Positions 15,616-44,642 of a stretch of DNA of 64,000 nucleotides are shown one piece after another. This DNA is from Thermoplasmata archaeon (GTDB lineage Archaea; Thermoplasmatota; Thermoplasmata; Methanomassiliicoccales; Methanomethylophilaceae). The stretch's first letter is position 1; each line of letters begins with the position of its first letter. The position numbers and the translations under genes are program-made. The notes beneath the pieces are model-generated. The model made no database searches. It was not told the DNA's origin and saw only the letters and a program-made list of their open reading frames with translations. The stretch is taken from NCBI GenBank assembly GCA_015063245.1, contig SUSV01000001.1, forward strand, positions 62,001 to 126,000. The letters run 5' to 3'.

Positions 15616-15650
15616 AGGTGTATACACGGGGATGGGACAAGTCTGATACA

Positions 15651-23168: not shown

Positions 23169-23220
23169 GGTAGGGAAACTAGTATTGGATATTTCGTCCA
23201 ATAGTATATTACGCCCTACC
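23169..23220. promoter_or_regulatory. Nested inverted repeats over the promoter of the nitrogenase-like operon
   Basis: Outer arms GGTAGGG (23169-23175) and CCCTACC (23214-23220) enclose inner arms TATTGGA (23183-23189) and TCCAATA (23197-23203). A probable TATA element GTATATTA (23204-23211) lies inside, 31-38 nt before ATG 23242. A protein bound to the inner dyad would block TBP. Confidence 0.6.
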
Positions 23221-25389: not shown

Positions 25390-26660
25390 GGAGAACATTG
25401 CCGGACGGGTTCGTCGGAGCAGTGATGGCCGTAGAAAGCATATCGGATGCCATAGTGTTCCTCCACGGACCGGGAGGATGCAGGGTCAGGTTCATGGTCT
25501 ATTCCAGCGCCGTATATCCGAGGATGACCCTCGAGGAGAGCGATTCATACTTCATACCCTATTTCTACGGTTACCCGAGGGTACCTGCCACGTTCCTCGA
25601 CGAGTACGATTACATCAACGGCGCGTTCTACAAGCTCGAGGAGGGACTCCCCATAGTAGACTCCAAGGATCCCGGGCTGGTCGTTGTCATCAATTCCCCC
25701 GGTGCCGGTCTCATCGGCGACAACCATGAGAAGGCGATCAGGGAGGCTCACATGGAGGACAGGGCGATCTACATGGGCGAGGCCCTCGTATCCATGCCGA
25801 TGACACAGGGATATGACCACACGCTCAGACAGATATTGGAGCATCTGGCACCTGTGAGGGACTCCCCGGAGAAGGATACCGTCAACCTGCTGGGGATGAC
25901 GGTCCTCGACAAGGATTGGGCGGCCGCCGTGGAGGAGTTCAGGGAGAATCTCGAATCCATGGGATTGAAGGTCAGATGCGTCCCCGGAGCAGGGGCCGAG
26001 CTCGGAGACCTGAGGGATTCGCTCAATTCCGAGTACTGCATCGTGGTCTGTCCAGAGGCATGCGCATCGCTGTGCGACTACTACGAATCCAAGGGGCTGA
26101 AGATAATACGCTCGAAGGCTGGAGCGCCGGTAGGCTTCGATGCCGTGGAGGGATGGTACAGGACCATTGCCGATGCTACTGGTAAGGATCCATCCGTCCC
26201 CATAGCTAAGATAGATAAGGCCAGGACCAAGATCTATCAGAAGTTCGTCGGCATGAAGTACAACGCGCTCCGCATCAAGGGGCTGAAGTTCTCTGCCGCA
26301 GGCACCGCATCGGTCGTGAGGCCGCTCACGAAGTGGATGTACTACTATCTCGCGACCGCCCCCATCGCCGTCGATACGGATCTGGGTTCCGACGAGGACG
26401 AGGTGAGGGAGCTAAGGGAGTTCCTGGAATCCATAGATTATGCCGAATCCTTCGGGGTCGAGCCGAAGATAGGTTCGGACATCGTCCTCAGCGAGGGGAT
26501 AACCGCGCTCACCATGAAGATAAACGGACAGTGCAGCATCGGGATCCCGATCGGTCATTCATCGATGGGTCTGGACGATGTGATCCCCCGTCCGGTATAC
26601 GGCGTGCAGGGTGCCCTCTACATCCTCGACGAGATACTCCACGGGGTCCGCGGAAGCTGA
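25386..26660 (+). CDS. Second nitrogenase-like subunit (NifK/BchB-position)
   Basis: A 424-residue NifD/K-superfamily protein, translationally coupled (ATGA) to the fusion gene, hence probably its heteromeric partner. The segment residues 7-32 aligns without gaps to residues 306-331 of the fusion: Asp7 replaces the first cluster Cys, and HGPGGC (Cys32) keeps the second. The third position reads INSPGAGLIGD (Ser104) instead of Cys. An Asp at the first position also occurs in BchB of dark protochlorophyllide reductase, where it ligates the shared [4Fe-4S] cluster. CIVVCPEACASLC near 218-230 is a further Cys cluster. NifE/N-like assembly factor is an alternative. Confidence 0.87.
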   Translation: MRRTLPDGFVGAVMAVESISDAIVFLHGPGGCRVRFMVYSSAVYPRMTLEESDSYFIPYFYGYPRVPATFLDEYDYINGAFYKLEEGLPIVDSKDPGLVVVINSPGAGLIGDNHEKAIREAHMEDRAIYMGEALVSMPMTQGYDHTLRQILEHLAPVRDSPEKDTVNLLGMTVLDKDWAAAVEEFRENLESMGLKVRCVPGAGAELGDLRDSLNSEYCIVVCPEACASLCDYYESKGLKIIRSKAGAPVGFDAVEGWYRTIADATGKDPSVPIAKIDKARTKIYQKFVGMKYNALRIKGLKFSAAGTASVVRPLTKWMYYYLATAPIAVDTDLGSDEDEVRELREFLESIDYAESFGVEPKIGSDIVLSEGITALTMKINGQCSIGIPIGHSSMGLDDVIPRPVYGVQGALYILDEILHGVRGS

Positions 26661-26662
26661 TC

Positions 26663-27439
26663 TCAGATCTTTCTGACCTTGAGCATGTAATGGCTCAGTG
26701 CGAAGATCACCACTCCGAACACGACCAGTACCGCCAGGGAAATCCATGGGAAGTCCGTGTAGAAGTCCGGCAGGCATGCCGCTCTTATGCAAAGGCTCGA
26801 GTGTGTCAGAGGCAGACAGTAGAGGATGCCCTGGAAGATGGGCTCCAGCGAATCGACCTCGAAGAAGGTACCGCACAGGAAGGTCATCGGAAGGATGATC
26901 AGGCTGTTGAACGTGGACATGCTCTGATGCGATTTCGCGATGAGGGCCGCAAGCATACCCAGCATGGAGAAAACCATGCAGCTGATGATGACGCAGATCA
27001 CCGCAAGGGGCGTGAGCTCGAGATCGGGTGCAAGCACCAGTCCGATGGCGTACATAAGGAAGCATCCCATAAGCCCTCTTACCAATCCGAGCATGCTCTT
27101 GCCGAGTACGATCGCAGCGTTGCTCAGAGGACAGAGCATCATCTCGTCGAAGCTCTTGTAGTACAGCCTCTGGACGTTGATCCTGGTGGATGTGGACGAG
27201 AACGATCCCGAAAGGGATGTCAGTGCCATGATTCCGGGGATGACGAATGCGACGTACGACACTCCGATGTCCGTCTCTCCCGACCTCAGCCCGTATCCGA
27301 ACGCGATGAGATAGAGAAGCGGACCCATGATCGTCATGATTATGGTGTTCAGGAGGTTGTGCTTCAGGAACATCAGGTCGGACCATGCTACGTGGTAGAC
27401 CTGATGGAAGAAACCGGTGTTCCTCTTGTATTCGCTCAT
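26663..27439 (-). CDS. ABC-2 type exporter permease (first copy)
   Basis: A 258-residue permease with six predicted helices of the ABC-2/NodJ/DrrB family (MGPLLYLIAFGYGL, MTFLCGTFFEV, LPLTHSSLCIRA). Its start overlaps the ATPase gene by 4 nt. It is clearly paralogous to the permease at 43316-44062: the order of motifs, VQRLYYKSFDEMMLCP versus VQRLFYMSFDELLLCP, and PMTFLCGT are shared. Such exporters move drugs, lipids or glycans, and some handle haem-related compounds. Convergent with the nitrogenase-like operon, 3 bp apart. Confidence 0.9.
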   Translation of the reverse strand: MSEYKRNTGFFHQVYHVAWSDLMFLKHNLLNTIIMTIMGPLLYLIAFGYGLRSGETDIGVSYVAFVIPGIMALTSLSGSFSSTSTRINVQRLYYKSFDEMMLCPLSNAAIVLGKSMLGLVRGLMGCFLMYAIGLVLAPDLELTPLAVICVIISCMVFSMLGMLAALIAKSHQSMSTFNSLIILPMTFLCGTFFEVDSLEPIFQGILYCLPLTHSSLCIRAACLPDFYTDFPWISLAVLVVFGVVIFALSHYMLKVRKI

Positions 27440-28215
27440 CTCTGATCACCTACCGATTTCCCGGTGAGCTCCACGAACACGTCCTCCAGGTTGGTCTTCC
27501 TGACGGTCGCATCCTCATGCCCGCCGGCGGAGACGAACTTCTGCGCCTCGTCCATGCTGTGGAAGTAATTGTAGACAGTCTTCCCGTCCTCCATGTACTC
27601 GACGGCGGTCCTTCCGGTCTGCTCGATCAGGACGGAGGGCTTGTCCAGCGCGATGATCTTACCGTGGTCGATGATGCCGACCCTATCGCACAGGGCCTCG
27701 GCCTCCTCGATGTAATGTGTGGTCAGGACTATGGTCGTGCCGCTCTGGTTGAGCCTCTTGACGACATCCCACAGGAGACGTCTGGCGTTGATATCGAGGC
27801 CGGATGTCGGCTCGTCGAGGAAGAGGACCTTGGGCTGATGCAGCATGGCGCATACGATCGCAGCCCTCTTCTTCCAACCTCCCGAAAGGGAATCGACGGG
27901 TTTGTCAAGATATTCCTCCAATCCGAAGTAGTCGGAAAGGTCCTTGATCCTGGCGTTCCTCTCCGCCTTCCCCATCCCATGGTACATCGCATGGGAGACC
28001 ATGTTCTCGCGGATGGTGAGGTCCTTGTCGAGGGAGATGGTCTGCTGGATGACCCCCATGAACTTCTTGGCCTTGGTCTGCTCCTTCACGACATTGACGC
28101 CGTTGACGTAGATCTCTCCCGAGGTGACGTTGGTGAGGGTGGAGATGCATCTCACAGTAGTGGTCTTGCCGGCACCGTTGGGGCCGAGGAATCCGAAAAG
28201 CTCTCCCTCCTCCAC
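27436..28215 (-). CDS. ABC-2 exporter ATPase (first copy), start codon unclear
   Basis: ATPase partner of the permease. Walker A GPNGAGKTTT, Q-loop GVIQQTISLDKDLTI, signature LSGGWKKRAAIVCAML (an unusual SGGWK form shared with the second copy), Walker B VLFLDEPTSGLD and H-loop LTTHYIEEAEAL. The first standard start codon is GTG at 28215, but it would cut off the first beta strand. In the same frame conserved residues (IIKIIGLVKKYGEKTAVDG) continue to an ATA at 28284, with GGAG 3 nt ahead, and no ATG/GTG/TTG before the next stop. Either a rare start codon is used or the start has mutated. Confidence 0.85.
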   Translation of the reverse strand: MEEGELFGFLGPNGAGKTTTVRCISTLTNVTSGEIYVNGVNVVKEQTKAKKFMGVIQQTISLDKDLTIRENMVSHAMYHGMGKAERNARIKDLSDYFGLEEYLDKPVDSLSGGWKKRAAIVCAMLHQPKVLFLDEPTSGLDINARRLLWDVVKRLNQSGTTIVLTTHYIEEAEALCDRVGIIDHGKIIALDKPSVLIEQTGRTAVEYMEDGKTVYNYFHSMDEAQKFVSAGGHEDATVRKTNLEDVFVELTGKSVGDQR

Positions 28216-28654
28216 CGTGAATGAGATGCCGTCTACCGCGGTCTTCTCGCCGTACTTCTTGACGAGGCCGATAATCTTGATTATATCTCCCGTGAAACCA
28301 CCTGTTGCCAGAACACTGGCTTGCAGGATATTTAGGATTTATCATCCAGCTGATGCGTTTTCCAACTTCCAGGCCGTTCAACATGCAGGCAAGGTGTGTA
28401 ATACCATGCTCCCAGGATTCTTCTGGATTATCGGTGTCGTTGCGACGATATTAATGCATCACATTGGTCGCTTTGGTGACGTCTTTTTCATTCATCGTTG
28501 AAGCGTTAATTGGAATGTTATGGTGAAGGCGCGTCTGTGTATCTGCATCCCCATAGGGGCACTACCGGAGTGCAAATGTCTGCGCTGCTAGAGAGAATAT
28601 TAGTTTGAAATTTACAGAATTTTTTTAATAATTTCAAACTAATTTTTTTCTATC
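28216..28654. other. Intergenic region before the DUF4143 ATPase
   Basis: Up to 28284 this is the conserved N-terminal coding part of the ABC ATPase. The remaining 370 bp hold a small GCCAG/CTGGC hairpin (near 28307-28322) and, at the far end, the long dyad 28599-28643. No convincing gene; short frames here show no family resemblance. Confidence 0.5.
28599..28643. repeat. 14-bp perfect inverted repeat, operator-like
   Basis: ATTAGTTTGAAATT (28599-28612) and its exact reverse complement (28630-28643), 17-bp A/T-rich spacer, then a T-run. It ends 11 bp before the ATPase ATG, suiting autoregulation or a leader hairpin. Confidence 0.65.
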
Positions 28655-31897: not shown

Positions 31898-34800
31898 TTA
31901 TGATTTGTCCTGCAGTCCCTCGATTCTCTCCTCGAGGTCCATGAAGAGGTCCTTCAGCTTCTCGATGGTCTCCGGATCGGCATTCCACATGCCTCTGTCG
32001 TAAGCTTCCATGAGGCGGTTCACCATCTCCATGGTCGCATAGGGGTTGCTCTCCTCCATCCACTCCCGCGTCTCAGGGTCGAATAGGTATTTTTCTGCAA
32101 GACCTTGATACATCCAGTCATCCGCGATATCCGACGTGGCGTCCCACCCGAAGGTGAACTCCGTCAGGTTGGTGACCTCAGCCACGCCGCGGAAGCCATG
32201 CTGTTTCAGACCATTGATGTACTTCGGATTGAGCGCCTTGCTCCTGTACACGAACTGGAGCTCCTGCTTTGAATCCCTCAGCTTCACCTTGTCCGGATCG
32301 GAGCCGTCGCCCATGAATGATACCGCGTCCTGATTGCCGTAAGCCTTGACGAATGCGTTCAGCCCGCCCAGATACGAGTAGAAGTCGTCGACATCGAGCA
32401 CATCTATCTCTCTGTCCGGGACGTTCTTGACTGTGATGCCCACCTTACCGAACCTCTTCATGAACTGGTCCTTCATCTGGACCCCGGACATGCCCCTGCC
32501 GTAGGCATAGCTGCCCCATTCCATGTAGATGTCCGCCAGGTCCCTGACGGTCTTCCAGTCCCCGTATTCGATGGCATGGTTCACACCTGCGCCGTAGGCG
32601 CCCGGAGGGCATCCGAATATACGGACGGAGTTCTTCTTCCTCGCCTCGTCGACGGTCATGCCGTTCGCAAGCGATTCCACGATGTCCCTGCGGAGATTGG
32701 CGGCGAGATAGTTGTCCTTGTCGTCCTCATCCAGTTCAGAGACCATCCTGACCGCATCGTCTATGAGATCTATCAGATTCGGGAACGCATCCCTGAACAG
32801 GCCTGTGATCCTGACGGTGACGTCGATCCTCGGCCTTCCCAGCTCGGACAGGGGGATTACCTCCAATCCCGTGACCTGCCCGCCCGTCTCCGACCAGACC
32901 GGTCTGACGCCCATCAGCCATAGGATGTAAGCAACGTCGTCCCCGTTGGTCTTCATCGTATCGGTGGCCCAGATGATGAAGCCGACCTCCTGCGGATACA
33001 TGCCCTTGTCGTCGATGTACCTTTGGATCATCTGGTCGGCCATCTTCCTCCCGATCTCCCATGACGACTTCGGAGGTATGGTATCGGGATCCACGCTGTA
33101 GTAGTTCCTGCCCATCGGGAGTATGTGGGCGTTCCCCCTCATCGGGGCGCCCGAAGGTCCCGGGAGAACATACCCGCCGTCACAGGCATGGATGATGTTG
33201 TCCATCTCGTCGCTCATTTTCGAGATGTTCTTCGAGAGTGTGCTGCAAACGTATACGACAGAGGCCCTCAGATCATCCGTCATCGGGTCGAACAATCCAA
33301 TGCAGGAATCGAGGTCGTAATCCTTCTCGCGCATCTGTGCCAGCAATCCCATAAGTTCAGAATCCAACCTGTCGATTATGAGTCCGTTGACCTCTCCGCC
33401 GGTCAAGGAAGACGGGGATTCCAAGAGGGCATCGATGTCATACGATCTCGATGCATAGAACGATGCTCTGAGCGATGGGACGTCCCCGTTCCTGAGTCTC
33501 ATGAGGCCGTAGATCATCTCGTCCAAAAGCTCCCCTTCGGGCGCCCTTCCGAGGATGTGCAGGCCATCCCTGATCAGAGCATCCTTGACCTCCGTGATGT
33601 ACTCGTGTATGTCGTCAAGATGGTATTCCAGCTCCTCGGCAGTTATGCCGCTGTCAAGGTTCAGATCTCTGAGCATATCCGATTTCTTCAGCGCTTCAAG
33701 TATCTCTGTAAGCATCGCCTTCTTCCTCTCATCGTTCTGCGATGCCTTGGATCTGAAGTAGCTCTGAAGGGGCTCATCAACCGCCGAGATGTCGTCGTAG
33801 CTGCCTGCGCGTGTCATGGTCGGGCACATGTGGCCGATGAGTACTGCCTCCGACCTGCGTTTGCATTGGATTCCCTCGCCCGGATCATCGATGATGTATG
33901 GATAGATGTGCGGTATCCCGTCCAGCACCAGGTCGGGGAAGCATTTCGACGAGAGCCCGTGGTTCTTACCGGGAAGCCATTCCAGTGTGCCGTGGGTGCC
34001 GATATGGAACACGACATTGGCTTTGAAATCGTTCTTCAGCCACCTGTAGAACTCGAGATACTGGTGCGGGCACGGTATGAGCGGATCGTGATAGACGGCC
34101 TCCATCTGCTCCGCCCATCCCCTGAGGGGCTGGAACCCGATGTAGATGTTCCCGTTCACTATGCCGGGGATGACGAACTTCCCCGAATCCACTGAGATCT
34201 CACCCGGCGGCTTCCCCCAGCTCCTCTCCATCATATTCCTGTTGAACTCGGAGAGCCTGTTGTAATGCTCAAGATAATCGGAGTTGTCCACCAGAGCCAC
34301 GGCCTTCTCCCTGACCCTCTCAGAGGAGGACCATTCGAGGTCGTTGGTTATGTTGTCCACGATCTCATCGATCAGGGCCTTGCCGTTCTCAGGTACATGG
34401 TCAAGCGTGTATCCCTCTTTACCGAATCTTTTCAGCATATCGCTGATGCTCTCGATGCTGTCCAGCCCTGCGGCTCCGCCGATGCGCCCCGTCTCGGGCC
34501 TGGATTGGTACATCAGGATCGCTATCCTTCTCTCCGAACGAGGTGTCCGTGAAAGGATCGCCCAGGACCTCATCATCTTCGCCAGATGATCGATCCTGTC
34601 ATCTATCGGGGAGTATCTCTTCATGCTTTTCCCGGATTCGTTGCTGGCGATGGGCACCGTGATTATCTGACCGTCGAGCTCCGGCCATATTATGCTCATG
34701 CTGAGCTCCGCTTTGCTCAGCCCCTCGGTCGTCTCCTCATAGTCGGCGAAATGGCCGGATATCATCATCACCTGCATCACGGGGATGTCGGTGAGGGTAT

Positions 34801-35638
34801 GGAAGAAGTTCTGTTCATCGGGCGTGTATATCCCGTAACAGTCCCTTGAGTTGTTTATCTGAGAGAATGCTGTGCACATGGCGATGGCATCCACCCTTCT
34901 CTTGTCCCCGTCCATGAAGTATCTCTTCACGACGTCCCTGGTCCCGAGCCTCTCGTCCGCATTGTGGGCGGTGACGCTGAAGAACACCGGGATGACGTTC
35001 ATCCCGAGAGATTCCATCTTGCGGATCAATGCTATGATGTGCTCCTGATTGTTGTAGATCCAGAGGTTCGACGTGTACAGGATGCCTATAGTTGGTCTGC
35101 CCGGGACGAGGTGTTTTAGATATTCCTCAAGAGTAATGTTCTCATCGAAATCTGGGTGGTAGATCCCATCCTCCCTCGTTGTGACAGGTTCAGGAGGATT
35201 GCCTGTGCCAGTAAGCTTCCATTGCAGCCAATGGAACACTCCCGCGTCGTTCTCCTTGCAACGGTTGGAGAGATAGGTCCTCAGACGGAGGAAGTCCTCA
35301 TCCGTTCCCTTGAACAGGTCCCTGTAGAGGAGGGCTACATCACCGCTCCCTGAATGGATCATGACGTATCCCGGACACGTGTCCAAGACCTTCTCCAGCT
35401 TTTCGAACCTTTTCATCTTGGTGGGGTCGGCCATGCACCTTATCAGGACAAGATCGGCTTCTTTCACCCTCAGGGTGAGCTCATGGTAGGTCAGGGGATC
35501 GTCGTCAACCTGCTCTCCGTTCCTGTGGTACAATTCAACCTGGATGCCCGTGGCCTCGGAGAAAAGATCGATCCCGGCCTTGATGGTACTAGAATCGGCG
35601 CTTTGAACAGAGATGTAAACCACTTTGAGAGGGCTCAT
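31898..35638 (-). CDS. CobN/BchH-family chelatase large subunit (first copy)
   Basis: A 1246-residue large subunit of the cobalto-/magnesium-chelatase family, which binds the tetrapyrrole and receives the metal. Seen: N-terminal region MSPLKVVYISVQSADSST, the core HIGTHGTLEWLPGKNHGLSS near residue 545, IYPYIIDDPGEGIQCKRRSE, and GFIIWATDTMKTNGDDVAYI with GCPPGAYGAGVNHAIE toward the C-terminus, all CobN hallmarks. Length agrees with CobN. ATG 35638 is chosen over an upstream non-conserved frame from 35728. It is divergent from the chlI-chlD-CobN operon across 105 bp. True cobalamin CobN partners CobS/CobT are absent; the BchI/BchD-type partners are next door. Confidence 0.94.
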   Translation of the reverse strand: MSPLKVVYISVQSADSSTIKAGIDLFSEATGIQVELYHRNGEQVDDDPLTYHELTLRVKEADLVLIRCMADPTKMKRFEKLEKVLDTCPGYVMIHSGSGDVALLYRDLFKGTDEDFLRLRTYLSNRCKENDAGVFHWLQWKLTGTGNPPEPVTTREDGIYHPDFDENITLEEYLKHLVPGRPTIGILYTSNLWIYNNQEHIIALIRKMESLGMNVIPVFFSVTAHNADERLGTRDVVKRYFMDGDKRRVDAIAMCTAFSQINNSRDCYGIYTPDEQNFFHTLTDIPVMQVMMISGHFADYEETTEGLSKAELSMSIIWPELDGQIITVPIASNESGKSMKRYSPIDDRIDHLAKMMRSWAILSRTPRSERRIAILMYQSRPETGRIGGAAGLDSIESISDMLKRFGKEGYTLDHVPENGKALIDEIVDNITNDLEWSSSERVREKAVALVDNSDYLEHYNRLSEFNRNMMERSWGKPPGEISVDSGKFVIPGIVNGNIYIGFQPLRGWAEQMEAVYHDPLIPCPHQYLEFYRWLKNDFKANVVFHIGTHGTLEWLPGKNHGLSSKCFPDLVLDGIPHIYPYIIDDPGEGIQCKRRSEAVLIGHMCPTMTRAGSYDDISAVDEPLQSYFRSKASQNDERKKAMLTEILEALKKSDMLRDLNLDSGITAEELEYHLDDIHEYITEVKDALIRDGLHILGRAPEGELLDEMIYGLMRLRNGDVPSLRASFYASRSYDIDALLESPSSLTGGEVNGLIIDRLDSELMGLLAQMREKDYDLDSCIGLFDPMTDDLRASVVYVCSTLSKNISKMSDEMDNIIHACDGGYVLPGPSGAPMRGNAHILPMGRNYYSVDPDTIPPKSSWEIGRKMADQMIQRYIDDKGMYPQEVGFIIWATDTMKTNGDDVAYILWLMGVRPVWSETGGQVTGLEVIPLSELGRPRIDVTVRITGLFRDAFPNLIDLIDDAVRMVSELDEDDKDNYLAANLRRDIVESLANGMTVDEARKKNSVRIFGCPPGAYGAGVNHAIEYGDWKTVRDLADIYMEWGSYAYGRGMSGVQMKDQFMKRFGKVGITVKNVPDREIDVLDVDDFYSYLGGLNAFVKAYGNQDAVSFMGDGSDPDKVKLRDSKQELQFVYRSKALNPKYINGLKQHGFRGVAEVTNLTEFTFGWDATSDIADDWMYQGLAEKYLFDPETREWMEESNPYATMEMVNRLMEAYDRGMWNADPETIEKLKDLFMDLEERIEGLQDKS

Positions 35639-35686
35639 TGGATGTATAATCCGTTCAACCGATATCAATCTGTCTTTGCATCCACC

Positions 35687-35717
35687 ACTAAATAAATTGA
35701 ACTGGCTTTTATTTAGT
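35687..35717. promoter_or_regulatory. Symmetric bidirectional promoter between the two chelatase units
   Basis: ACTAAATAAA (35687-35696) and TTTATTTAGT (35708-35717) are exact inverted arms, 11 bp apart. Each arm resembles a TATA box for one direction: the right arm is about 30 nt ahead of the chlI-like ATG (35744, leaderless), and the left about 50 nt ahead of the CobN ATG (35638). One regulator could control both. Confidence 0.6.
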
Positions 35718-35743
35718 TGGACGAACATTCAAAATCCGATATC

Positions 35744-36769
35744 ATGGACAAACTCATTTTCCCGTTCGTCTCGATAGTCGGACAGGACGATATGAAGAAG
35801 GCGCTTCTTCTGAATATGGTCGATCCGAGCATCGGGGGAGCACTCATAAAAGGCGAGAAGGGTACCGCCAAATCTACCACGGTACGTTCGCTCTCGCAGA
35901 TCCTTCCGTACAGAACAGTGGTGGATGGATGCGTCTTCAACTGCGATCCGTCCAAGCCCGAGAACATGTGCCCGTATTGCTCGGAGAGGCTCTCCAAAGG
36001 GGAGGAGCTGAAGAGCAGACAGGTGCAGATGAGGGTGGTCGAGCTGCCGCTCAGCGCCACCGAGGACCGTGTGGCCGGAACCTTGGACATAGAGCATGTC
36101 CTCAAGACAGGTGAGAAGAAGTTCGAACCCGGAGTTCTTGCGCAGGCCAACGGCAATCTCCTCTATGTGGATGAGGTGAATCTGCTCGACGACCATATCG
36201 TGGACCTCCTTCTGGATTCGGCAGCTATGGGAGTGAACTACATCGAGAGGGAAGGCGTCTCATTCTCGCACCCATCCAGGTTCATCCTCGTAGGGACCAT
36301 GAATCCCGAGGAGGGCGAGCTCAGGCCCCAGCTTCTGGACAGGTTCGGACTGTCGGTAGACGTCAAGGGCGACAAGGATACGGAGCTCCGCATGGAGGTG
36401 GTCAAGAGGAGGATCGCGTTCGATACCGACCCCGCAGGATACACCAAGAAATGCCAGGCGGAGACCGATGCGATGCGCCAGAAGATCACCGATGCCCGCG
36501 AGAACCTGCCTAAGGTGGAGGCAGGGGACGGCATAATAAAGGCCATTGTGACAATCACAACCAATTTCGAGATCGACGGACACAGGGCGGACATAACCAT
36601 GCTGAAGGCCGCTAAGGCCAATGCAGCCCTGGACGGCAGGATCGAGGTGACCAAGGACGATATAAGGGCGGTCGCCTCCCTCGTGCTCTCGCACCGTATG
36701 AGGCGCAGACCCTTCGAAGAGGCCGCGTTCGATACCGAGGAACTCGAAAAATGTCTTCAGTCGATCTGA
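35744..36769 (+). CDS. Magnesium-chelatase I-like AAA+ ATPase
   Basis: A 341-residue BchI/ChlI-type AAA+ motor that drives metal insertion with the D and H subunits. Seen: Walker A GEKGTAKST at 37-45, an insert with Cys63, Cys67, Cys76 and Cys79 (zinc-finger-like, known in CobN-associated I subunits), Walker B LLYVDEVN at 139-146, and sensor GTMNPEEGELRPQLLDRFGL. BchI length is typical. The upstream TTG frame adds 9 residues and is unlikely, since the dyad's TATA arm points to ATG 35744. It overlaps the D-like gene by 19 nt. Confidence 0.94.
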   Translation: MDKLIFPFVSIVGQDDMKKALLLNMVDPSIGGALIKGEKGTAKSTTVRSLSQILPYRTVVDGCVFNCDPSKPENMCPYCSERLSKGEELKSRQVQMRVVELPLSATEDRVAGTLDIEHVLKTGEKKFEPGVLAQANGNLLYVDEVNLLDDHIVDLLLDSAAMGVNYIEREGVSFSHPSRFILVGTMNPEEGELRPQLLDRFGLSVDVKGDKDTELRMEVVKRRIAFDTDPAGYTKKCQAETDAMRQKITDARENLPKVEAGDGIIKAIVTITTNFEIDGHRADITMLKAAKANAALDGRIEVTKDDIRAVASLVLSHRMRRRPFEEAAFDTEELEKCLQSI

Positions 36770-38643
36770 GATACTTCCCCTTCTCGGCAGTATACGGCGT
36801 GGACGATGCCAAAAGGGCGCTCCAGTGCTTATTGGTCAGCCCCAGCCTGAGGACCGTGCTCATAAGGGGCGGACAGGGTTCTGGCAAGACCCTCATCGCG
36901 AGGTCGATCACCAAGATCTCGGGCAAGAAGGTCATCAACATCCCGGTGAATGTCTCGGAGGAGCAGCTCTTCGGCGGTATGGACCTTGACGAGACCATCA
37001 AGCAGGGCAAGCCCGTGGTACAGCCTGGACTGCTCTCCAAGGCCGACGGGCAGCTGGTCTATGTCGACGATGTCAACCTCATGGACCAGAAGATCCTGAT
37101 GACCCTTCTGAACTCGGTCATCGACGGAAGGGTCGTGCTGGAGAGGGAAGGGGTATCCGCCGAGTACACCACCGATGTGAAGCTCATCGCCACGATGAAT
37201 CCGAAGGACACGGACATCAGCCCCCATGTACTGGACCGTTTCGACCTCTGCGCCTACATTACGCCTCCGGAGAACGATGAGGAGAAGGCGGAGGTGCTGA
37301 GAAGGAACATGGATTTCCAGAAGGACCCCTATGCATTCTCTATCCATTACATGGAGGATGACGAGGAGGTTAGGTCCAACATTGAGAGGGCGAAGACGCT
37401 CCTCCCCCTGGTCACGGTCACCGATGATCTCATAGAGGTGTCCGTGGAGCTGGCCGTCAAGGTCATGGCCGACGGTATGCGCGGAGACATAACATTGATC
37501 AACACGGCGGTCTCGATGGCGGCCCTGAACGGCCGCGACGAGGTCATGAAGAAGGACATAGAGGAAGCCGCGATGCTGTGTCTGGCTCATAGGCGCAACT
37601 ATGCTCAGGAGCCTCCTCCGGAACAGCCTCCGGAGAATCAGAATGACACGGAGGACCAGCCGGACGAGCCCCCGCCGCAGGATGACAGGAACGATGATGA
37701 GAGGTCCGATGAGGAGCCCCCGGAGGATCAGGATGATACGGATGATCAGCAGGAGCCCCCGGACAACGATTTCCAGCAGCTCCTGGACGAGATGGTGTTC
37801 GAGATCGGCGAGCAGTTCAGGGTGGTCGATTATCTGAGCGACAGGCACAGGAGGATCTCCAAGACCTCCGCCAAGAAGGGTCGCAGGATGATGGTCGAGA
37901 GCTCGGATGCAACGGGCCGCTATGCAAGGCCGAGGATACCGTCCGAGAAGACAAGCGACATCGCGTTCGATGCCACCGTGAGGGCCGCCGCCCCATACCA
38001 GAGGAGCAGGGAGCACAGCGGATTGGCCATCAACATCCAGAAGCAGGATGTGAGGGAGAAGGTCCGCGAGATGCGCGCAGGATGCACCATCCTGTTCCTG
38101 GTCGATGCAAGCGGTTCCCTCGGGGTCAGGAAGAGGATGACGGCCGTCAAGGGTGCCGTGCTGTCCATGCTCAAGGACAGCTATGTCAAGAGGGACAGGA
38201 TAGGCATGATGGCGTTCCGCCGCGACTCCGCGGAGCTGGTGCTCCCGCCGACGAGATCGGTCGAGTACAGCTACCGCAAGCTGGAGGAGATGCCCACGGG
38301 AGGCAAGACGCCCCTCGCGGAGGCATTGGTCACCGTGAACGAGTACATGACCGCGTACTCGAGGTCCCATGAGGGAGAGATGTGCTACATCGTCCTCATA
38401 ACGGACGGCCGTGCGAACGTCCCGCTGAAGGAGGGGGCGAACGCCAACGAGGAAGTGATCAGCCTGGCGGAGCGTATGGCGATACCGCAGGTCAAATGGA
38501 TAGTCATAGACGCGAGTGCAGGATTCATCAGATTCGACAACGCCAACAGGTTGGCGGAGGCACTCGAAGGCACGTATTTCAGATTGGAGGATCTGAACGC
38601 CGACAGGCTCGCGGAGAGCGTGAGGGCCGCGATAAACAGATGA
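36751..38643 (+). CDS. Magnesium-chelatase D-like protein (AAA+, acidic linker, VWA)
   Basis: A 630-residue BchD/ChlD-type subunit. Residues 1-280: AAA+ domain with Walker A GGQGSGKT (40-47) and LVYVDDVNLMD. Residues about 286-340: Pro/Glu/Asp/Gln-rich linker, a usual feature of D subunits. Residues about 440-630: von Willebrand A domain with MIDAS DASGS at 452-456 and VLITDGRAN. The VWA part contacts the CobN/BchH subunit. Overlaps the I-like gene; the second CobN starts 28 bp downstream with a strong AAAGGAGG site. Confidence 0.95.
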   Translation: MSSVDLRYFPFSAVYGVDDAKRALQCLLVSPSLRTVLIRGGQGSGKTLIARSITKISGKKVINIPVNVSEEQLFGGMDLDETIKQGKPVVQPGLLSKADGQLVYVDDVNLMDQKILMTLLNSVIDGRVVLEREGVSAEYTTDVKLIATMNPKDTDISPHVLDRFDLCAYITPPENDEEKAEVLRRNMDFQKDPYAFSIHYMEDDEEVRSNIERAKTLLPLVTVTDDLIEVSVELAVKVMADGMRGDITLINTAVSMAALNGRDEVMKKDIEEAAMLCLAHRRNYAQEPPPEQPPENQNDTEDQPDEPPPQDDRNDDERSDEEPPEDQDDTDDQQEPPDNDFQQLLDEMVFEIGEQFRVVDYLSDRHRRISKTSAKKGRRMMVESSDATGRYARPRIPSEKTSDIAFDATVRAAAPYQRSREHSGLAINIQKQDVREKVREMRAGCTILFLVDASGSLGVRKRMTAVKGAVLSMLKDSYVKRDRIGMMAFRRDSAELVLPPTRSVEYSYRKLEEMPTGGKTPLAEALVTVNEYMTAYSRSHEGEMCYIVLITDGRANVPLKEGANANEEVISLAERMAIPQVKWIVIDASAGFIRFDNANRLAEALEGTYFRLEDLNADRLAESVRAAINR

Positions 38644-38671
38644 AGGGTACAGGGAAAGGAGGCAGAAATGT

Positions 38672-41600
38672 ATGAGGTTCGTGAACATATCGATCGGGAC
38701 CATCGACAGCTATCTGATGAACGAGGCTGTCAAATCGGTGCGTTCGGAGGGTTACGATGTGGATTACCACAACTATGACAATGTGGATCTGGATGACGAT
38801 CCGCTTTATCTCGCATCGGCCATCAAGGTGATATCGAAGGCCGATTTCATCACGATAAAGGTCCATGGGGACACCTCCTACTGCAAGAAGTTCGACAAGA
38901 TCCTCAACACGATAGAGAAGCACAGCATATGCACCCATCTCAGCTGCACGGATGATTGCGTCACCGACGCCTTCAGAAGGCTGTTCATAGGGACGGATGA
39001 GGAATACGGCAGGATAATGGCCTATGCGGTCCTCGGAGGGGACGATAACTTCGAAGCACTGATCAAATGGGGGCTGAGGAGGTTCGACGGCATAGACCTT
39101 GAGGTGGCTGAACCGAAGCACCCTCTGACAGAGGGAGTGTACATCCCAGGTTCGGATGACAACGACATAGGGAAGTATCTCGATTCGCTGGATGCGTCCA
39201 AGCCCAACATAGGGATATTCTTCTATCAGAAGCAGTGGGTCACAGGCAACCTCGGGAACATCGACGGGCTCATCAGGGCCGTCGAGGACCTGGGAGGCAA
39301 CCCTGTGCCGGTGTTCCTCAACACATACGAGAACAAGATCGATGGCTCCAAGGGGGTGAAGAGGCTGCTCAGGGAGGACCTGACCCGCAACGGGAAGCCG
39401 GTCCTCGATGCCATCATCGAGACCATGAGCTTCAGCCAGACCCTGGTGGCGAACCCGGGTACGGGGGACCAGGTCTGCAATGACAACTTCTTCGACGAGT
39501 ACGGGGTCCCGGTGCTGCAGACCACGACCATGGTCTCAACGGAAGAGTATTGGAAATGCCATCTCGAGGGATTATCCCCTGCGGAGATAGCATACGACAT
39601 CGTGCATCCTGAGTTCGACGGCCAGATCATAGTCCCCGCATCTGCGACCAACGAGATGGACGGGGACGTCCGCTATTACAAATCATTGACAGACAGAGCC
39701 TACCGCGTTGCGGATATGGCAATGATGTGGGCGAGGCTCAGGCACATCGAGAACAGGGACAGGAAGGTTGCTATCCTGCTCTATCAGTATCCTCCCAAGA
39801 ACGCGGGAGCGGGCGGAGCGGCAGGACTCGACACTTTCGCCAGTGTAGTTAACATCCTGCACAGGATGAGGGATGACGGATACAACGTCGGCGATTCGAT
39901 CCCGGAGACAGCGAAGGAGCTGGTGGATGTGCTGCTGTCCGGCCTCACCAACGATACCGAGATGATGTCATCGGACGAGGTCAGCAGGCGCGCGGAGGAC
40001 ATGATACCTCCGGAGCAGTACAACATATGGTACAGGGAGCTCTCGGAGGCAGCCAGGGCGAGGATCGAGAAGGACTGGGGGAAGCCTCCCGGCGAGTTCT
40101 ACACGGTAGGGAAGGACATCATCGTACCCGGAACGGTGTTCGGGAACATCATAGTGGGCTTCCAGCCTGACAGGGGAAAGGACATTCAGTCTGATTACCA
40201 CGACCCGGACTGCGTGCATCCCCATCAGTATTATGCATACTACAAGTGGCTCAGACACGATTTCGGAGCCAAGGCGGTCATCCATGTGGGTACCCATGGG
40301 ACCCTCGAATGGCTTCCGGGGAAGGCGGTGGCGCTCAGCGGAGACTGCTGTCCCGACTATGTCATGTCCTCTCTCCCGGACATATATCCGTACGTCATCG
40401 GCAACCCCGGAGAGGGAGTTCAGGCCAAGAGGCGTGCGGCCGCGGTCATCATCGACCATATGATCCCGACGATGACCCGCGCAGGAGGCTATGATGAGAT
40501 CCTGGAGCTGGAGGGCACCGTCCAGAACTACCTGAAGGCGGTGACGCAGGGCCAGGAACAGAGCGCGGCGATGATCCTTGAGAAGATCAGGGAGATCCTG
40601 ACCCGCATGGACATGTTCAACGACCTAAAGCTCGATCCGGGATGCTCGGACAAGGAGCTGGAGGCCAAGGTCAACGACCTCTACGATTACATAGTCGACA
40701 TTAAGGAGAATCTGATCAAGGACGGCCTGCACATCCTCGGGGAGATCCCCGAAGGGAAGAGGCTGGAGGAGGACGTCTACAGCCTGACCCGCATGCCCAA
40801 CGGCGAGGTGCCGTCATTGAGGGCGGGGATCGCATCCTCGATGGGCTACGACATATTCGACCTCCAGAACAACTCGTCGGAAAGGAACGCCGAAGGCGTC
40901 CTCAAGGGGCAGATACTGGAGGATGTCGAGACGAGGATGGAGGACCTCATCAAGGATATGCACGAGGCTGGATTCGATAAAGCTCAATGCCTGTCACTCG
41001 TATCCGATTACAACGAGGATGTGAAGGCCGTGACCTCGTTCATCTGCGACGAGCTGTATCCTAACCTGCTGCATATGGACAATGAGATCGACAGCGTCAT
41101 GAAGGCATTGCAGGGGAGGTTCGTGGAACCCGGTCCCTCGGGATGCCCGACCAGAGGGAGGGCGCAGATCCTGCCGACCGGCAGGAACTTCTATTCAATC
41201 GACCCGGATGCGGTCCCCTGGCACTCCAGCTGGGAGATTGGTAAGAAGATGGCCGACCAGATGATAGAGCGCTATGTGGAGCAGCACGGCGCATATCCGA
41301 AGAACGTCGGTATCGTCATGTGGGCCACCGATACGATGAAGACCGGGGGCGACGACACCGCATACGTCCTGTGGCTGATGGGTATACGCCCGGTCTGGAC
41401 CGGGTATGCTGGGCGCGTCAAGGACCTCGAGGTCGTCCCGGTATCCGAGCTTGGAAGGCCCAGGATCGACGTCACGCTGAGGATCAGCGGTCTTTTCAGG
41501 GACACGTTCCCCAACCTAGTCAGGATGATCGACCGTGCCGTCCATATGGTCGCCGAACTCGATGAATCAGAAGAGGAGAACTATATCCTGGCCAATCTGC

Positions 41601-42391
41601 GCAGGGATATAGTGCTCTCCATCGAGGAGGGGATGCCCGAGGATCAGGCGAGGGAGGATGCGATGATACGCATCTTCGGGGATGCCCCGGGAACCTACGG
41701 TTCAGGTACCAACATCCTCATCAGGACCTCGGATTGGAAGGAGCAGGACGAGATCGGGAAGATATACCGCGACTATGGTGAATATGCCTACGGCAACGGA
41801 AGGTACGGCGAGAGGAAATCGGATGCGTTCAGGCACAAGCTCATGAACATGGATGTGACCGTGAAGAACAGCGTCAGCAGGGAGTATGACATGTTCGACA
41901 ACGACGATGTCTACACGGATCTGGGAGGTTTCAACGCAGCCGTGAAGTCCGTGCGCGGGGAGATGCCGACTTCTATCATCGGATTCTCGGCGGATACGGC
42001 TAACATCAAGACGAAGACCATCGAGGAGGAAGGGCGCTACATCTTCCGCAGCAAGATCAACAATCCGAAATGGGTCGAGGGTCTGAAGCCCCACGGATTC
42101 AAGGGGGCCCAGGAGATATCGAAGATGACCGAATACGTATTCGGATGGGGTGCGACATCGGATATAATCGAAGGCTGGGAGTACAAGTCCATCGCGGACA
42201 ACTTCCTGTTCGATAAGGAGAACTCCGAATGGTTCAGGGACGCGAACCCCTATGCCATGTTCGAGGTGACATCCCGTCTGCTCGAGGCGATCTACCGCGA
42301 GATGTGGGATGCCGATGAGGAGACGGAGGAGAAGCTGAAGGAGCTCTACGAGGATCTCGAAGGAGACTTGGAAGGTCTCAGCGATAGGTGA
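38672..42391 (+). CDS. CobN/BchH-family chelatase large subunit (second copy)
   Basis: A 1239-residue paralogue of the protein at 31.9-35.6 kb. Shared core: HVGTHGTLEWLPGKAVALSG near residue 538, YVIGNPGEGVQAKRRAAAV, VGIVMWATDTMKTGGDDTAY and GDAPGTYGSGTNI. The N-terminal 300 residues differ most from the first copy, suggesting a different tetrapyrrole or metal, or a second role. Same operon as the I- and D-like subunits, start ATG with GGAAAGGAGG about 9 nt ahead. A second exporter operon follows 67 bp later. Confidence 0.94.
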   Translation: MRFVNISIGTIDSYLMNEAVKSVRSEGYDVDYHNYDNVDLDDDPLYLASAIKVISKADFITIKVHGDTSYCKKFDKILNTIEKHSICTHLSCTDDCVTDAFRRLFIGTDEEYGRIMAYAVLGGDDNFEALIKWGLRRFDGIDLEVAEPKHPLTEGVYIPGSDDNDIGKYLDSLDASKPNIGIFFYQKQWVTGNLGNIDGLIRAVEDLGGNPVPVFLNTYENKIDGSKGVKRLLREDLTRNGKPVLDAIIETMSFSQTLVANPGTGDQVCNDNFFDEYGVPVLQTTTMVSTEEYWKCHLEGLSPAEIAYDIVHPEFDGQIIVPASATNEMDGDVRYYKSLTDRAYRVADMAMMWARLRHIENRDRKVAILLYQYPPKNAGAGGAAGLDTFASVVNILHRMRDDGYNVGDSIPETAKELVDVLLSGLTNDTEMMSSDEVSRRAEDMIPPEQYNIWYRELSEAARARIEKDWGKPPGEFYTVGKDIIVPGTVFGNIIVGFQPDRGKDIQSDYHDPDCVHPHQYYAYYKWLRHDFGAKAVIHVGTHGTLEWLPGKAVALSGDCCPDYVMSSLPDIYPYVIGNPGEGVQAKRRAAAVIIDHMIPTMTRAGGYDEILELEGTVQNYLKAVTQGQEQSAAMILEKIREILTRMDMFNDLKLDPGCSDKELEAKVNDLYDYIVDIKENLIKDGLHILGEIPEGKRLEEDVYSLTRMPNGEVPSLRAGIASSMGYDIFDLQNNSSERNAEGVLKGQILEDVETRMEDLIKDMHEAGFDKAQCLSLVSDYNEDVKAVTSFICDELYPNLLHMDNEIDSVMKALQGRFVEPGPSGCPTRGRAQILPTGRNFYSIDPDAVPWHSSWEIGKKMADQMIERYVEQHGAYPKNVGIVMWATDTMKTGGDDTAYVLWLMGIRPVWTGYAGRVKDLEVVPVSELGRPRIDVTLRISGLFRDTFPNLVRMIDRAVHMVAELDESEEENYILANLRRDIVLSIEEGMPEDQAREDAMIRIFGDAPGTYGSGTNILIRTSDWKEQDEIGKIYRDYGEYAYGNGRYGERKSDAFRHKLMNMDVTVKNSVSREYDMFDNDDVYTDLGGFNAAVKSVRGEMPTSIIGFSADTANIKTKTIEEEGRYIFRSKINNPKWVEGLKPHGFKGAQEISKMTEYVFGWGATSDIIEGWEYKSIADNFLFDKENSEWFRDANPYAMFEVTSRLLEAIYREMWDADEETEEKLKELYEDLEGDLEGLSDR

Positions 42392-42458
42392 TCCCATCGG
42401 CTGCGGATGAGAGCGTTTATCATTATTGGCGGATATATCCCACTAAAAGAGGTATCGG

Positions 42459-43319
42459 ATGGACAATATCGTTGAAGTGAGGGACCTAGTAGTCAAATTC
42501 GGCGATTTTACGGCAGTGGACGGTATATCATTCGATGTCAAGAAGGGCGAGATCTTCGGTTTCCTCGGTCCCAACGGGGCAGGGAAGACCACCACGATCC
42601 GCACCATCACAACCATTCAACAATACACATCTGGCTCTGTGTCGATAGACGGCCATGACATAAAGGACGAGTACCTTGAGGCGAGGAAGCTCATAGGCAT
42701 CGCCCAGCAGCATATCTCCTTGGACAAGGACCTGACCGTCCGGCAGAATCTCAAGCACCATGCGATCCTCCATAAGATACCGAAGAAGGATATCGACCGC
42801 ATCGTCAACGAGACAGCGGACATCCTCGAGCTGAGGGAGTTCATGGACCACAAGGTCATGGACCTGTCCGGCGGGTGGAAGAGGAAGGCGGCGATAATCG
42901 CGGCGATCATCCATCAGCCCAAGATACTGCTCCTCGACGAGCCTACCGCCGGATTGGATACGCGTTCCCGCTACATGCTGTGGGATCTGGTCCGGATGCT
43001 CAACGAGCGCGGGACCACCATCTTCCTTACGACGCATTACATCGAGGAGGCGGAAGCCCTGTGCGACAGGGTCGCCATCATCAACAACGGGAAGCTGGTC
43101 GCGATCGGAACGGTCGACGAGCTCCGCGACTTGATCGGACAGGTGGCCGTGGAGACCACGGACGACTCAGGCAAGCGCAAGGTCCATTATTTCAGGACAA
43201 GGGAGGAGGCGACGGATTTCGCCCATACGCTGACAGATAGGCTCTACAGCGTCAGGAAGACCACTCTGGAGGATGTGTTCCTCGAGATCACCGGAGAGGA
43301 CGGAGGGAAGCTGCAATGA
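42459..43319 (+). CDS. ABC-2 exporter ATPase (second copy)
   Basis: A 286-residue ATPase paralogous to the one at 27.4-28.2 kb. Walker A GPNGAGKTTT, Q-loop GIAQQHISLDKDLTV, signature LSGGWKRKAAIIAAII, Walker B ILLLDEPTAGLD, H-loop LTTHYIEEAEALCDRV, and the same C-terminal ending TLEDVFLEITGE. Its complete N-terminus (IVEVRDLVVKFGDFTAVDG) shows what the first copy lacks a proper start for. Overlaps the permease by 4 nt. A TATA-like GGATATATCC lies near 42430. Confidence 0.94.
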   Translation: MDNIVEVRDLVVKFGDFTAVDGISFDVKKGEIFGFLGPNGAGKTTTIRTITTIQQYTSGSVSIDGHDIKDEYLEARKLIGIAQQHISLDKDLTVRQNLKHHAILHKIPKKDIDRIVNETADILELREFMDHKVMDLSGGWKRKAAIIAAIIHQPKILLLDEPTAGLDTRSRYMLWDLVRMLNERGTTIFLTTHYIEEAEALCDRVAIINNGKLVAIGTVDELRDLIGQVAVETTDDSGKRKVHYFRTREEATDFAHTLTDRLYSVRKTTLEDVFLEITGEDGGKLQ

Positions 43320-44062
43320 GCATCCTGGACGAGACCTACCGCGTGGCATGGGGAGACCTACAGTACATGTGGGGGAACAAGATCGAGGTCCTGCTCTCAT
43401 CTCTGATCGGACCCCTGCTCTATCTCCTCGCATTCGGATTCGGTGTTGGAGGCACGATGGAGGATCCGGACACCTACGTGATGTACATCGTACCCGGAAT
43501 AATCTCGCTCACAACGCTGTCCGCGACGTTCAGCACGGTGTCCATGAAGGTACTGGTCCAGAGGCTGTTCTACATGAGCTTCGACGAGCTGCTCCTGTGC
43601 CCGATACACATAACCTCCATAATCCTCGGAAAGACGGTCCAGGGAATAGTGAGGGCATTCATCAGCTGCACCATACTCCTTGTGGTGGGATGGCTCATCT
43701 CGCCGGAGGTCGTGATCAGCCCGTGGATAATCCTGGCGATCCTTGTTGGAGGGCTCATGTTCTCACTGCTGGGGCTGCTTGCCGGAATCCTCACCAACAA
43801 GACTCAGAACCTGTCACTGTTCTCCAGCATCGTCGTCGTCCCCATGACATTCCTGTGCGGGACGCTGTTCGATGTGGACGTCCTTCCGGATGCTGTAGCG
43901 TATGCAATCTACGTCCTTCCCCTGACGCATCTGAGCAATCTGATGAGGGGCATCATGCTGACGGACTACAGCGTGGGGGTGGACTCGGTCGCTATCATCT
44001 TCATCTACATCGCCGTGATGTTCGGCGCCTGCTATTACATGATAAAGAACAACAAATGCTGA
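43316..44062 (+). CDS. ABC-2 type exporter permease (second copy)
   Basis: A 248-residue six-helix permease, paralogous to the first copy (shared IGPLLYLLAFGFGV, VQRLFYMSFDELLLCP, VVPMTFLCGTLFDVD). ATGA-coupled to its ATPase and in line with the chlI-chlD-CobN operon, which suggests the exported or membrane-moved compound is related to the chelatase product; this is inference from context. Confidence 0.92.
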   Translation: MSILDETYRVAWGDLQYMWGNKIEVLLSSLIGPLLYLLAFGFGVGGTMEDPDTYVMYIVPGIISLTTLSATFSTVSMKVLVQRLFYMSFDELLLCPIHITSIILGKTVQGIVRAFISCTILLVVGWLISPEVVISPWIILAILVGGLMFSLLGLLAGILTNKTQNLSLFSSIVVVPMTFLCGTLFDVDVLPDAVAYAIYVLPLTHLSNLMRGIMLTDYSVGVDSVAIIFIYIAVMFGACYYMIKNNKC

Positions 44063-44072
44063 GGGAATCGCA

Positions 44073-44642
44073 ATGACTGTAGGAGACAAGAAGAAGGTGG
44101 CCGCCGTGCCCAAGGATGACAGGAAGCTCGCTCTGGTCATCGTGGATGTTCAGAAGAAGTTCCTGACCGGCGATAAGGATGCTACCATGGAGACCATCAG
44201 GGAGAACACGCCGCAGATGCTGAATGTCATCTCACGTTTCAGGGAGGCAGGAAGGCCTGTGATCTGGATACTGTACGAGGGCGAGACCTGCGTGCAAGGG
44301 ATCACCGATGATTCCGACATCCTCTTGGACGGTTTCAAGATAGAGGAGGGGGATTCCGTCGTGAGGAAGTATCACATGAACTCGTTCCTCAACACCAACC
44401 TATCGGATGTGATCCGCTCCAAAGGCTGTGACGGGGCCCTGCTGATGGGGATGTACGCTCAGCACTGCGTCATGTCCACATACTGGGGCGCGTTCGACAA
44501 GGACATCTCCCCGTACATGATGGAAGGCTGCCTGATCAGCACCGACAGGAAATACTGCGATCTGGCGATAGAGCTGTGCAAGCACTACACCATGGAGGAG
44601 CTGGAATCCAATCTCAGGGTCAATTCCAAGAAGGCTGCCTGA
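44073..44642 (+). CDS. Isochorismatase/nicotinamidase-family cysteine hydrolase
   Basis: A 189-residue cysteine hydrolase with the full triad: Asp25 (VIVDVQKKF), Lys99 (VVRKYHMNSF) and Cys132 (QHCVMSTYWGA), including the cis-peptide-like turn before Cys. Family members cleave amides or vinyl ethers (nicotinamide, isochorismate, carbamoyl groups). The start is 10 bp after the permease, so it belongs to the chelatase-exporter operon, where it could hydrolyse an amide side chain (speculative). Confidence 0.88.
   Translation: MTVGDKKKVAAVPKDDRKLALVIVDVQKKFLTGDKDATMETIRENTPQMLNVISRFREAGRPVIWILYEGETCVQGITDDSDILLDGFKIEEGDSVVRKYHMNSFLNTNLSDVIRSKGCDGALLMGMYAQHCVMSTYWGAFDKDISPYMMEGCLISTDRKYCDLAIELCKHYTMEELESNLRVNSKKAA

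Follow-up and report, generated by a model that had tools for sequence, protein, structure and literature searches.

We analysed a window of 64,000 nt from a Thermoplasmata archaeon of the Methanomethylophilaceae (GCA_015063245.1, SUSV01000001.1, positions 62,001-126,000 of the forward strand); all positions below are counted within this window. Two genes encode large subunits of class I chelatases, CobN_A (31,898-35,638, minus strand, 1246 aa) and CobN_B (38,672-42,391, plus strand, 1239 aa), and they are the only two CobN genes of the genome. The length of CobN_A refers to the start that aligns with CobN_B, while an upstream ATG at 35,728 would give 1276 aa. The profile search showed that both proteins match PF02514 over their full length (1200 and 1208 bits, respectively) and that both lie above the 822-bit cut-off of TIGR02257, the CobN equivalog model (911 and 952 bits). 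Their fold is clear from solved relatives. The first-pass annotation had described two large subunits of these lengths with conserved core motifs and diverged N-terminal thirds, and this description was borne out: both ORFs are present, each retains an undamaged active-site motif (HxGTHGTLEWLPGK), and both contain the CobN-type motifs GxHGxLEWxPGK and RE.D..D.DD. Global identity between them is 528/1229 (43%), ranging from 24-39% over the first ~490 residues to as much as 70% in the C-terminal core. With no active-site residue missing and the motifs intact in both proteins, a decayed copy was rejected.

The motor subunits are ChlI (AAA+; 35,744-36,769, plus strand; TIGR02442/TIGR02030) and ChlD (AAA+ and VWA; 36,751-38,643, plus strand; TIGR02442/TIGR02031 and VWA_2). 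The ChlI ORF opens at a TTG at 35,717, and its ATG start was inferred at 35,744. The earlier count of one chlI and one chlD is correct for the locus and incorrect for the genome, in which contig C3 carries a second pair (ChlI 61% identical) beside genes for a trimethylamine methyltransferase and a corrinoid protein, giving two CobN and two ChlI/ChlD pairs in all. Among near-complete relatives, CobN genes outnumber ChlI genes (about seven against two in G009, seven against three in G007), and G015, which has just one ChlI/ChlD pair genome-wide, encodes both A and B. The counts in relatives support a motor that is shared among several large subunits.

In the phylogenetic tree, A and B formed two old clades with an SH-aLRT of 100 each, which together with the 43% identity excluded a recent, near-identical tandem duplication. 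Active-site residues are fixed in both clades. Twenty genomes encoded A together with core-B, six encoded A only and none encoded core-B only, counts that come mostly from draft MAGs and are uncorrected for kinship. The answer to the question of whether the two types always co-occur is therefore asymmetric: core-B was never found without A, and A was found without B. Because of the first of these results, and because A and B frequently lie side by side, we regard them as a conserved pair and not as a recent duplication. The first-pass annotation had offered either one motor serving two substrate- or metal-specific large subunits or a heteromer; motor sharing is supported by the relatives, and the asymmetric co-occurrence makes a functional pair, whether a heteromer or sequential partners, a better fit than two independent metal specificities. 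Nevertheless, A and B may be independent chelatases for different metals or substrates that share one motor and were brought together by co-transfer, a doubtful possibility that would be compatible with corrinoid salvage. In green sulfur bacteria, one I/D pair is known to go with several large subunits (BchH, BchS and BchT; PMC8620254), relatives contain lone A genes as well as extra A, B and other copies, and the N-terminal thirds differ strongly. Against this stand the absence of core-B without A and the comparison of the clades, in which 160 positions were fixed identically and only 2 were fixed differently, so that no strong two-pocket signature was found. An Asp/Asn difference between A and B precedes PGEG.

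The window also encodes a nitrogenase-like enzyme, consisting of a NifH-NifD fusion (23,242-25,389, plus strand, start inferred at 23,242; PF00142 and PF00148) and a NifK-like subunit (25,365-26,660, plus strand) whose closest solved structures are those of DPOR BchB. Three NifD cysteines are invariant in 30/30 sequences and one NifK cysteine in 33/33; NifK has a cysteine at the position of BchB Asp36. The cysteine ligand of an M-type cofactor is replaced by Asp in the window and was never present among the 30 NifD-like sequences, where D, N, S, V and F are the commonest residues, and a true nitrogenase (NifHDK) was thus rejected. Identity with CfbCD was also rejected, as the CfbC model scored 322 of the 402 bits needed and a NifK-like partner is present. 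CobN copy number tracks the number of nitrogenase-family genes (Spearman 0.72-0.78, uncorrected for kinship and mostly from draft MAGs).

CobN genes cluster not only with NifHD/NifK but also with BtuFCD-type importers, drrAB-type exporters and CbiZ. The importer of the window comprises a Btu/Fec-type substrate-binding protein (15,618-16,760, plus strand; TIGR04281, with PF01497 at 26.7 bits, just under the 27.5 cut-off), a BtuC/FecCD permease (16,802-17,821, plus strand; BtuC is its best NCBIfam match) and a BtuD-like ATPase (17,689-18,606, plus strand, the true start lying further inside the ORF), homologues of which, in relatives, are partnered by FecCD permeases next to CobN. It lies ~13 kb from CobN_A, and importers directly adjoin CobN in relatives and in Bathyarchaeota. 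Exporter L consists of an ABC-2 permease (26,663-27,439, minus strand) and an ATPase (27,436-28,215, minus strand), both from families recurrent in relatives. Exporter R consists of a DrrA/NodI-like ATPase (42,459-43,319, plus strand; TIGR01188), the same gene coming after cobN in Bathyarchaeota as well as in many relatives, and a DrrB-like ABC-2 permease (43,316-44,062, plus strand; PF01061), and is followed by a recurrent exporter neighbour, an isochorismatase-family hydrolase (44,073-44,642, plus strand; PF00857) found near 14/64 CobN loci. An importer or exporter was present within 5.5 kb in 47/64 CobN loci. In five complete genomes, 34 FecCD permeases lay within 10 kb of CobN/Nif genes against 6.2 expected, and in relatives CbiZ lay within 12 kb of CobN in 15/48 cases against 2.4 expected. 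The CbiZ pair of this genome is on the same contig, ~76 kb away and not adjacent to CobN. In Bathyarchaeota, which belong to another phylum, the parts form a single operon, chlID-SBP-FecC permease-ATPase-cobN-cbiZ-drrA-drrB. The host organisms are dwellers of animal guts.

Promoters of the CobN-linked gene set are marked by a candidate operator, a palindrome with the consensus TTGGAT-N5-ATCCAA. The four highest motif scores of the window fell at the promoters of the nitrogenase-like genes (TTGGATATTTCGTCCAA, 23,185-23,201, score 22.3, one mismatch), of CobN_A/ChlI, where the site lies directly upstream of CobN_A in the divergent promoter (TTGGATGTATAATCCGT, 35,638-35,654, 18.3, two mismatches), of exporter L (TAGGATTTATCATCCAG, 28,333-28,349, 17.3, two mismatches) and of exporter R (42,426-42,442, 9.1, weak by itself). 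The motif occurred 6-32 times per genome versus 0-3 times for the reversed control. In this genome it was also found at a B12-dependent RNR, the CobA/BtuR adenosyltransferase and importers, and in relatives without CobN at CbiC/CbiMN (cobalt uptake), CbiK, CobD/CbiB, MtaB and corrinoid-protein/methyltransferase genes. Some sites adjoin unrelated genes. Others have genes for methyltransferase-ArsR fusion proteins next to them, and these proteins are candidate regulators. The symmetric promoter noted earlier corresponds to CTAAATAAA-N11-TTTATTTAG, an exact palindrome at 35,688-35,716 that possibly represents two divergent TATA boxes. About 14 palindromes of this kind, this one included, occur within the window, and in relatives it was not found ahead of chlI; the conserved element is the palindrome at 35,638-35,654. 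A search of the window for a cobalamin riboswitch found none.

The gene content, intact active sites, two clades, asymmetric co-occurrence, neighbourhood statistics and shared operator, all established by computation, tip the balance slightly towards a model in which two anciently paired large subunits and the one ChlI-ChlD ATP motor serving them belong to a cobalt/corrinoid regulon for the uptake and remodelling of external corrinoids or related tetrapyrroles. The role is likely corrinoid salvage and not the synthesis of B12 or F430. Neither this context nor the nitrogenase-like partner and the shared operator figured in the first-pass annotation. In this model, the BtuFCD-type importer would bring a macrocycle into the cell, CbiZ would trim off its side chains, CobN with ChlID would carry out an ATP-driven insertion, removal or exchange of the central metal, NifHD/NifK would supply the macrocycle or its metal with low-potential electrons, and a product would leave through the DrrAB-type exporter. 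A and B may cooperate as a heteromer or act on successive forms of the substrate. We infer the corrinoid nature of the substrate, the order of the steps, the metal and the direction of its transfer, and any physical complex. Scavenged corrinoids already holding cobalt need no cobalt insertion, which counts against a salvage chelatase. Also speaking against the model are the distances of the importer and CbiZ from CobN in this genome, the two mismatches in the CobN_A and exporter L sites, the weak exporter R site and the occurrence of the operator at unrelated genes.

It is also conceivable, if unlikely, that the module serves to synthesise a novel metallo-tetrapyrrole endogenously, with CobN-ChlID inserting the metal, the NifHDK-like enzyme reducing the ring, and the product being exported or kept as a cofactor. 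Mg-chelatase and DPOR/COR in chlorophyll synthesis provide the parallel, and the BchB-like NifK, the retained cysteines, the missing cysteine ligand of the nitrogenase cofactor, the correlated copy numbers and the exporters adjoining both CobN and nif-like genes are all consistent with it. However, the recurrent importers and CbiZ, and the operator common to cobalt and corrinoid genes, point to imported corrinoids; moreover, no dedicated ring-building genes are linked, and gene presence is patchy even inside one genus. In a bolder and distinctly unlikely reading, A and B form a two-part ATP-driven metal exchanger that acts together with the nitrogenase-like reductase: cobalt would be removed from imported corrinoids or swapped, the ring reduced and a modified tetrapyrrole exported. 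If true, gut methanogens would have a novel enzyme function and perhaps a novel natural product. Quite improbable is a de-chelatase like HmuS, with A and/or B demetallating haem, corrinoids or other metallo-tetrapyrroles after their import and before export of the metal-free ring. HmuS belongs to the same family and is encoded in an import operon (PMC12583661), the bathyarchaeotal order importer-CobN-exporter fits import, demetallation and export, and the hosts inhabit animal guts. Yet the HmuS motif LSLDHxxEFMGG is absent from A and B, which have Asp (within the CobN-type RE.D..D.DD) and Ser/Thr at the places of His1209 and Glu1212; ChlID is linked here, whereas HmuS is ATP-independent, and the operator points to cobalt/corrinoid genes and not to haem. 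An ordinary cobaltochelatase (CobNST) of the aerobic B12 pathway is hardly credible even though both proteins pass the CobN equivalog model, as ChlI/ChlD and not CobS/CobT lie beside CobN, genes for tetrapyrrole methylases and small class II CbiX-type chelatases are present in the genome along with cobalt-early B12 genes, and complete relatives without any CobN retain CbiC and CbiM (G014 also CbiK).

Corrinoid salvage, the favoured role, would carry ecological weight in ruminant guts because corrinoids are central to methyl-dependent methanogenesis there. A 2025 study of the chelatase superfamily describes the function of the many archaeal CobN-like proteins as unclear and these proteins as unassociated with cob genes (PMC12583661). 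In two archaeal phyla, the present evidence connects such proteins with corrinoid importers, exporters, CbiZ and a nitrogenase-like enzyme, and the operator connects them with cobalt/B12 genes, so that the question of their function becomes directly testable. This suggests a so far unknown corrinoid-handling role for common archaeal CobN proteins. Literature searches combining CobN with Methanomassiliicoccales or the nitrogenase superfamily gave no results. Bathyarchaeotal Mg-chelatase genes have been taken to indicate chlorophyll synthesis (PMC7110647), a reading that the evidence presented here calls into question.

Among known systems, operon-2 of Dehalobacter restrictus supports corrinoid salvage because it unites comparable parts in one regulated set: FepBCD/BtuCDE, two CbiZ, CobN and Mg-chelatase subunits, raised 346-fold in transcript and 46-fold in protein under corrinoid starvation (PMC4285132). 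Operon-2 is bacterial and under a cobalamin riboswitch, and the passages on it name one CobN and mention no nitrogenase-like enzyme (PMC4285132). The set studied here is split over several promoters with a palindromic operator, has its CbiZ pair ~76 kb away, and includes the A/B pair and NifHD/NifK. Salvage has also been proposed, as speculation, for haloarchaeal cobN-chlID (HVO_B0051/HVO_B0050), where CobN likewise adjoins a Mg-chelatase-type motor; there, a single CobN goes with a fused ChlID, unlike the A/B pair here (PMC8305020). In green sulfur bacteria, BchH, BchS and BchT share one BchI and one BchD as A and B may share their motor, but they are Mg-protoporphyrin chelatases of bacteriochlorophyll synthesis (PMC8620254 and its references 75 and 76), and A and B are CobN-type, scoring 756 and 779 bits with TIGR02025, under its 829-bit cut-off, so that a BchH/ChlH magnesium chelatase was rejected. 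The CobN of CobNST (Mycobacterium 7c6o; 9uk9) has the same fold family and motifs with a full-length match, but its partners are CobS/CobT, in contrast to ChlI/ChlD in an organism with cobalt-early B12 genes. HmuS shares the superfamily and the link to import but needs no ATPase motor, and its His/Glu motif is absent from A and B (PMC12583661). Finally, NifHD/NifK resembles CfbCD, DPOR and COR in its predicted [4Fe-4S] site replacing the nitrogenase cofactor, and differs from them in having a NifH-NifD fusion with NifK as its partner.

The window (C5:62001-126000) lies in an archaeal genome of 1.49 Mb, whose nearest named relatives are Candidatus Methanomethylophilaceae and further Methanomassiliicoccales, many from ruminant and termite guts. 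It carries the only CobN genes of this genome, encoding the full-length CobN-type chelatase subunits CobN_A (31898-35638, minus strand) and CobN_B (38672-42391, plus strand), with the motor genes chlI and chlD located between them. The two proteins were 43% identical, most in the C-terminal core and least in the N-terminal third. Both clades alike keep the motifs HxGTHGxLEWxPGK and RE.D..D.DD. These results agree with the first-pass annotation, which had described conserved core motifs and differing N-terminal thirds. Across A and B, 160 aligned positions were fixed on the same residue and 2 on different residues, one being Asp (A) to Asn (B) before PGEG. The single chlI and chlD described earlier hold for the locus but not genome-wide, as a second pair (C3:60250-62084, L072) adjoins mttB (trimethylamine methyltransferase) and mttC (its corrinoid protein). 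Because chlI/chlD pairs are also present in CobN-free relatives (G033, G050), the C3 pair may serve another role, possibly as an activase for corrinoid enzymes.

CobN_A and CobN_B fell into separate clades in trees of 153 distinct sequences and of 41 sequences; in the latter, better-modelled tree both clades had full SH-aLRT support. The A/B pair is therefore old. Most genomes compared were draft assemblies, and several counts were transcribed by hand from tables. Among 33 CobN-bearing genomes, 20 carried A and core-B, 6 A alone, none core-B alone and 7 neither (Fisher p = 0.0004, shared ancestry left uncorrected). The proposed check of whether the two types always co-occur was answered for one side: core-B was always accompanied by A, but A also occurred without core-B. 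The two genes adjoined or almost adjoined in many genomes, divergently around chlID in some, as in the window, and head to head or in tandem in others. The suggestion that one motor serves two large subunits gained support from relatives, as CobN copies exceeded ChlI copies in several genomes and one (G015) had A and B yet a single ChlI/ChlD pair, where the motor must be shared if both need one; the own genome has two CobN and two chlI/chlD pairs. Some full-length CobN genes of relatives contained one or two in-frame TAG codons (G030:C1:48733-52434, G067:C1:1098652-1102380, G003:C4:104859-108542). TAG can be decoded as pyrrolysine in archaea of this order, and these proteins may hold it. One contig labelled Bacteroidetes bacterium ADurb.Bin145 (L154) is probably misbinned, its CobN being closely related to those of the methanogens.

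Recurrent CobN neighbours in relatives were BtuFCD/FecCD-type importers, drrAB-type exporters, a nitrogenase-like pair (NifHD/NifK) and a gene of the isochorismatase family. FecCD permeases lay within 10 kb of CobN or a nif-like gene 34 times against 6.2 expected (rotation, five complete genomes), and CbiZ, an amidohydrolase of corrinoid salvage, within 12 kb of CobN in 15/48 cases against 2.4 expected. CobN and nitrogenase-family gene counts correlated across 34 genomes (Spearman 0.72; 0.78 with three genomes bearing true nif operons removed; shared ancestry left uncorrected in both). Bathyarchaeota and Methanomethylicota conserved a single operon of fused chlID, substrate-binding protein, permease, ATPase, cobN, cbiZ, drrA and drrB (L181, L183-L187, L193, L194, L204).

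Promoter inspection in relatives revealed a palindrome, TTGGAT-N5-ATCCAA, with 117 occurrences in the examined loci at no more than one mismatch. A subset of loci held 38 sites against 0-1 with shuffled arms, and individual genomes had 6-32 against 0-3 for the reversed pattern. Sites in CobN-free relatives lay at CbiC/CbiMN, CbiK, CobD and CbiB following BtuCD, the methanol methyltransferase MtaB, a corrinoid protein and a drrA-type exporter; those in the own genome lay at an adenosylcobalamin-dependent ribonucleotide reductase and at CobA/BtuR, the corrinoid adenosyltransferase, and also at corrinoid proteins and several importers. Some sites stood at unrelated genes. With a matrix built excluding the window, the four best scores in the window were upstream of NifHD (22.3), CobN_A/ChlI (18.3), exporter L (17.3) and exporter R (9.1), the exporters being DrrAB-type; the remainder scored at most 6.1. 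Two-mismatch sites in the window were not significant by mismatch count alone, so the operator claim rests on site positions and on relatives. The palindrome appears to mark a cobalt/corrinoid regulon throughout the order (G014:C1, G034; L227-L243). In the own genome, one site lies 74 bp upstream of a manganese efflux pump of the MntP type (L210:1414-1974), which is at odds with a purely corrinoid regulon. Fusions of a SAM-methyltransferase domain with an ArsR-type HTH (L208:724-1893, L229:872-2014) adjoin sites and substrate-binding proteins, and are candidate regulators.

Three Cys were invariant in NifD (30/30) and one in NifK (33/33), and none of the NifD-like sequences had Cys at the nitrogenase-cofactor-binding position, which held Asp, Asn, Ser or other residues. 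The best match of NifK among solved structures was DPOR BchB, with Cys in NifK at the position of the BchB ligand Asp36. A three-plus-one Cys cluster that is probably similar occurs in chlorophyllide reductase. On these features NifHD/NifK is likely a [4Fe-4S] reductase akin to tetrapyrrole reductases, but substrates of nitrogenase-like enzymes include other compounds as well (PMC11423573).

Simple metal removal as by HmuS is less likely for the chelatase, because the HmuS-type catalytic motif was not found in CobN_A or CobN_B. A role in B12 or F430 synthesis is contradicted by other pathway genes and CobN-free relatives: the own genome has six tetrapyrrole-methylase matches (4/6 on one contig) and several class II, CbiX-type chelatases, F430 synthesis relies on CfbA, a small chelatase (PMC7242693), and neither CobN nor ChlI was found in the complete relatives G014 and G034, which nonetheless have genes for cobalt uptake and corrin synthesis (CbiM and CbiK in G014; CbiC, CbiQ and CbiB in G034). 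CobN number varied from zero to about ten per near-complete genome, as expected for an accessory function.

Cobalamin salvage has been guessed as the role of haloarchaeal CobN-ChlID (PMC8305020), and for Chlorobium a genomic link to cobalamin transporters has been pointed out (PMC8620254). On these precedents and that of Dehalobacter, we favour a chelatase with a paired large subunit for corrinoid salvage or remodelling, which may insert, remove or exchange the metal. The nearest precedent backed by data is Dehalobacter operon-2, in which CobN and Mg-chelatase subunits are encoded together with importers and two CbiZ, and which is strongly induced on corrinoid starvation (PMC4285132).
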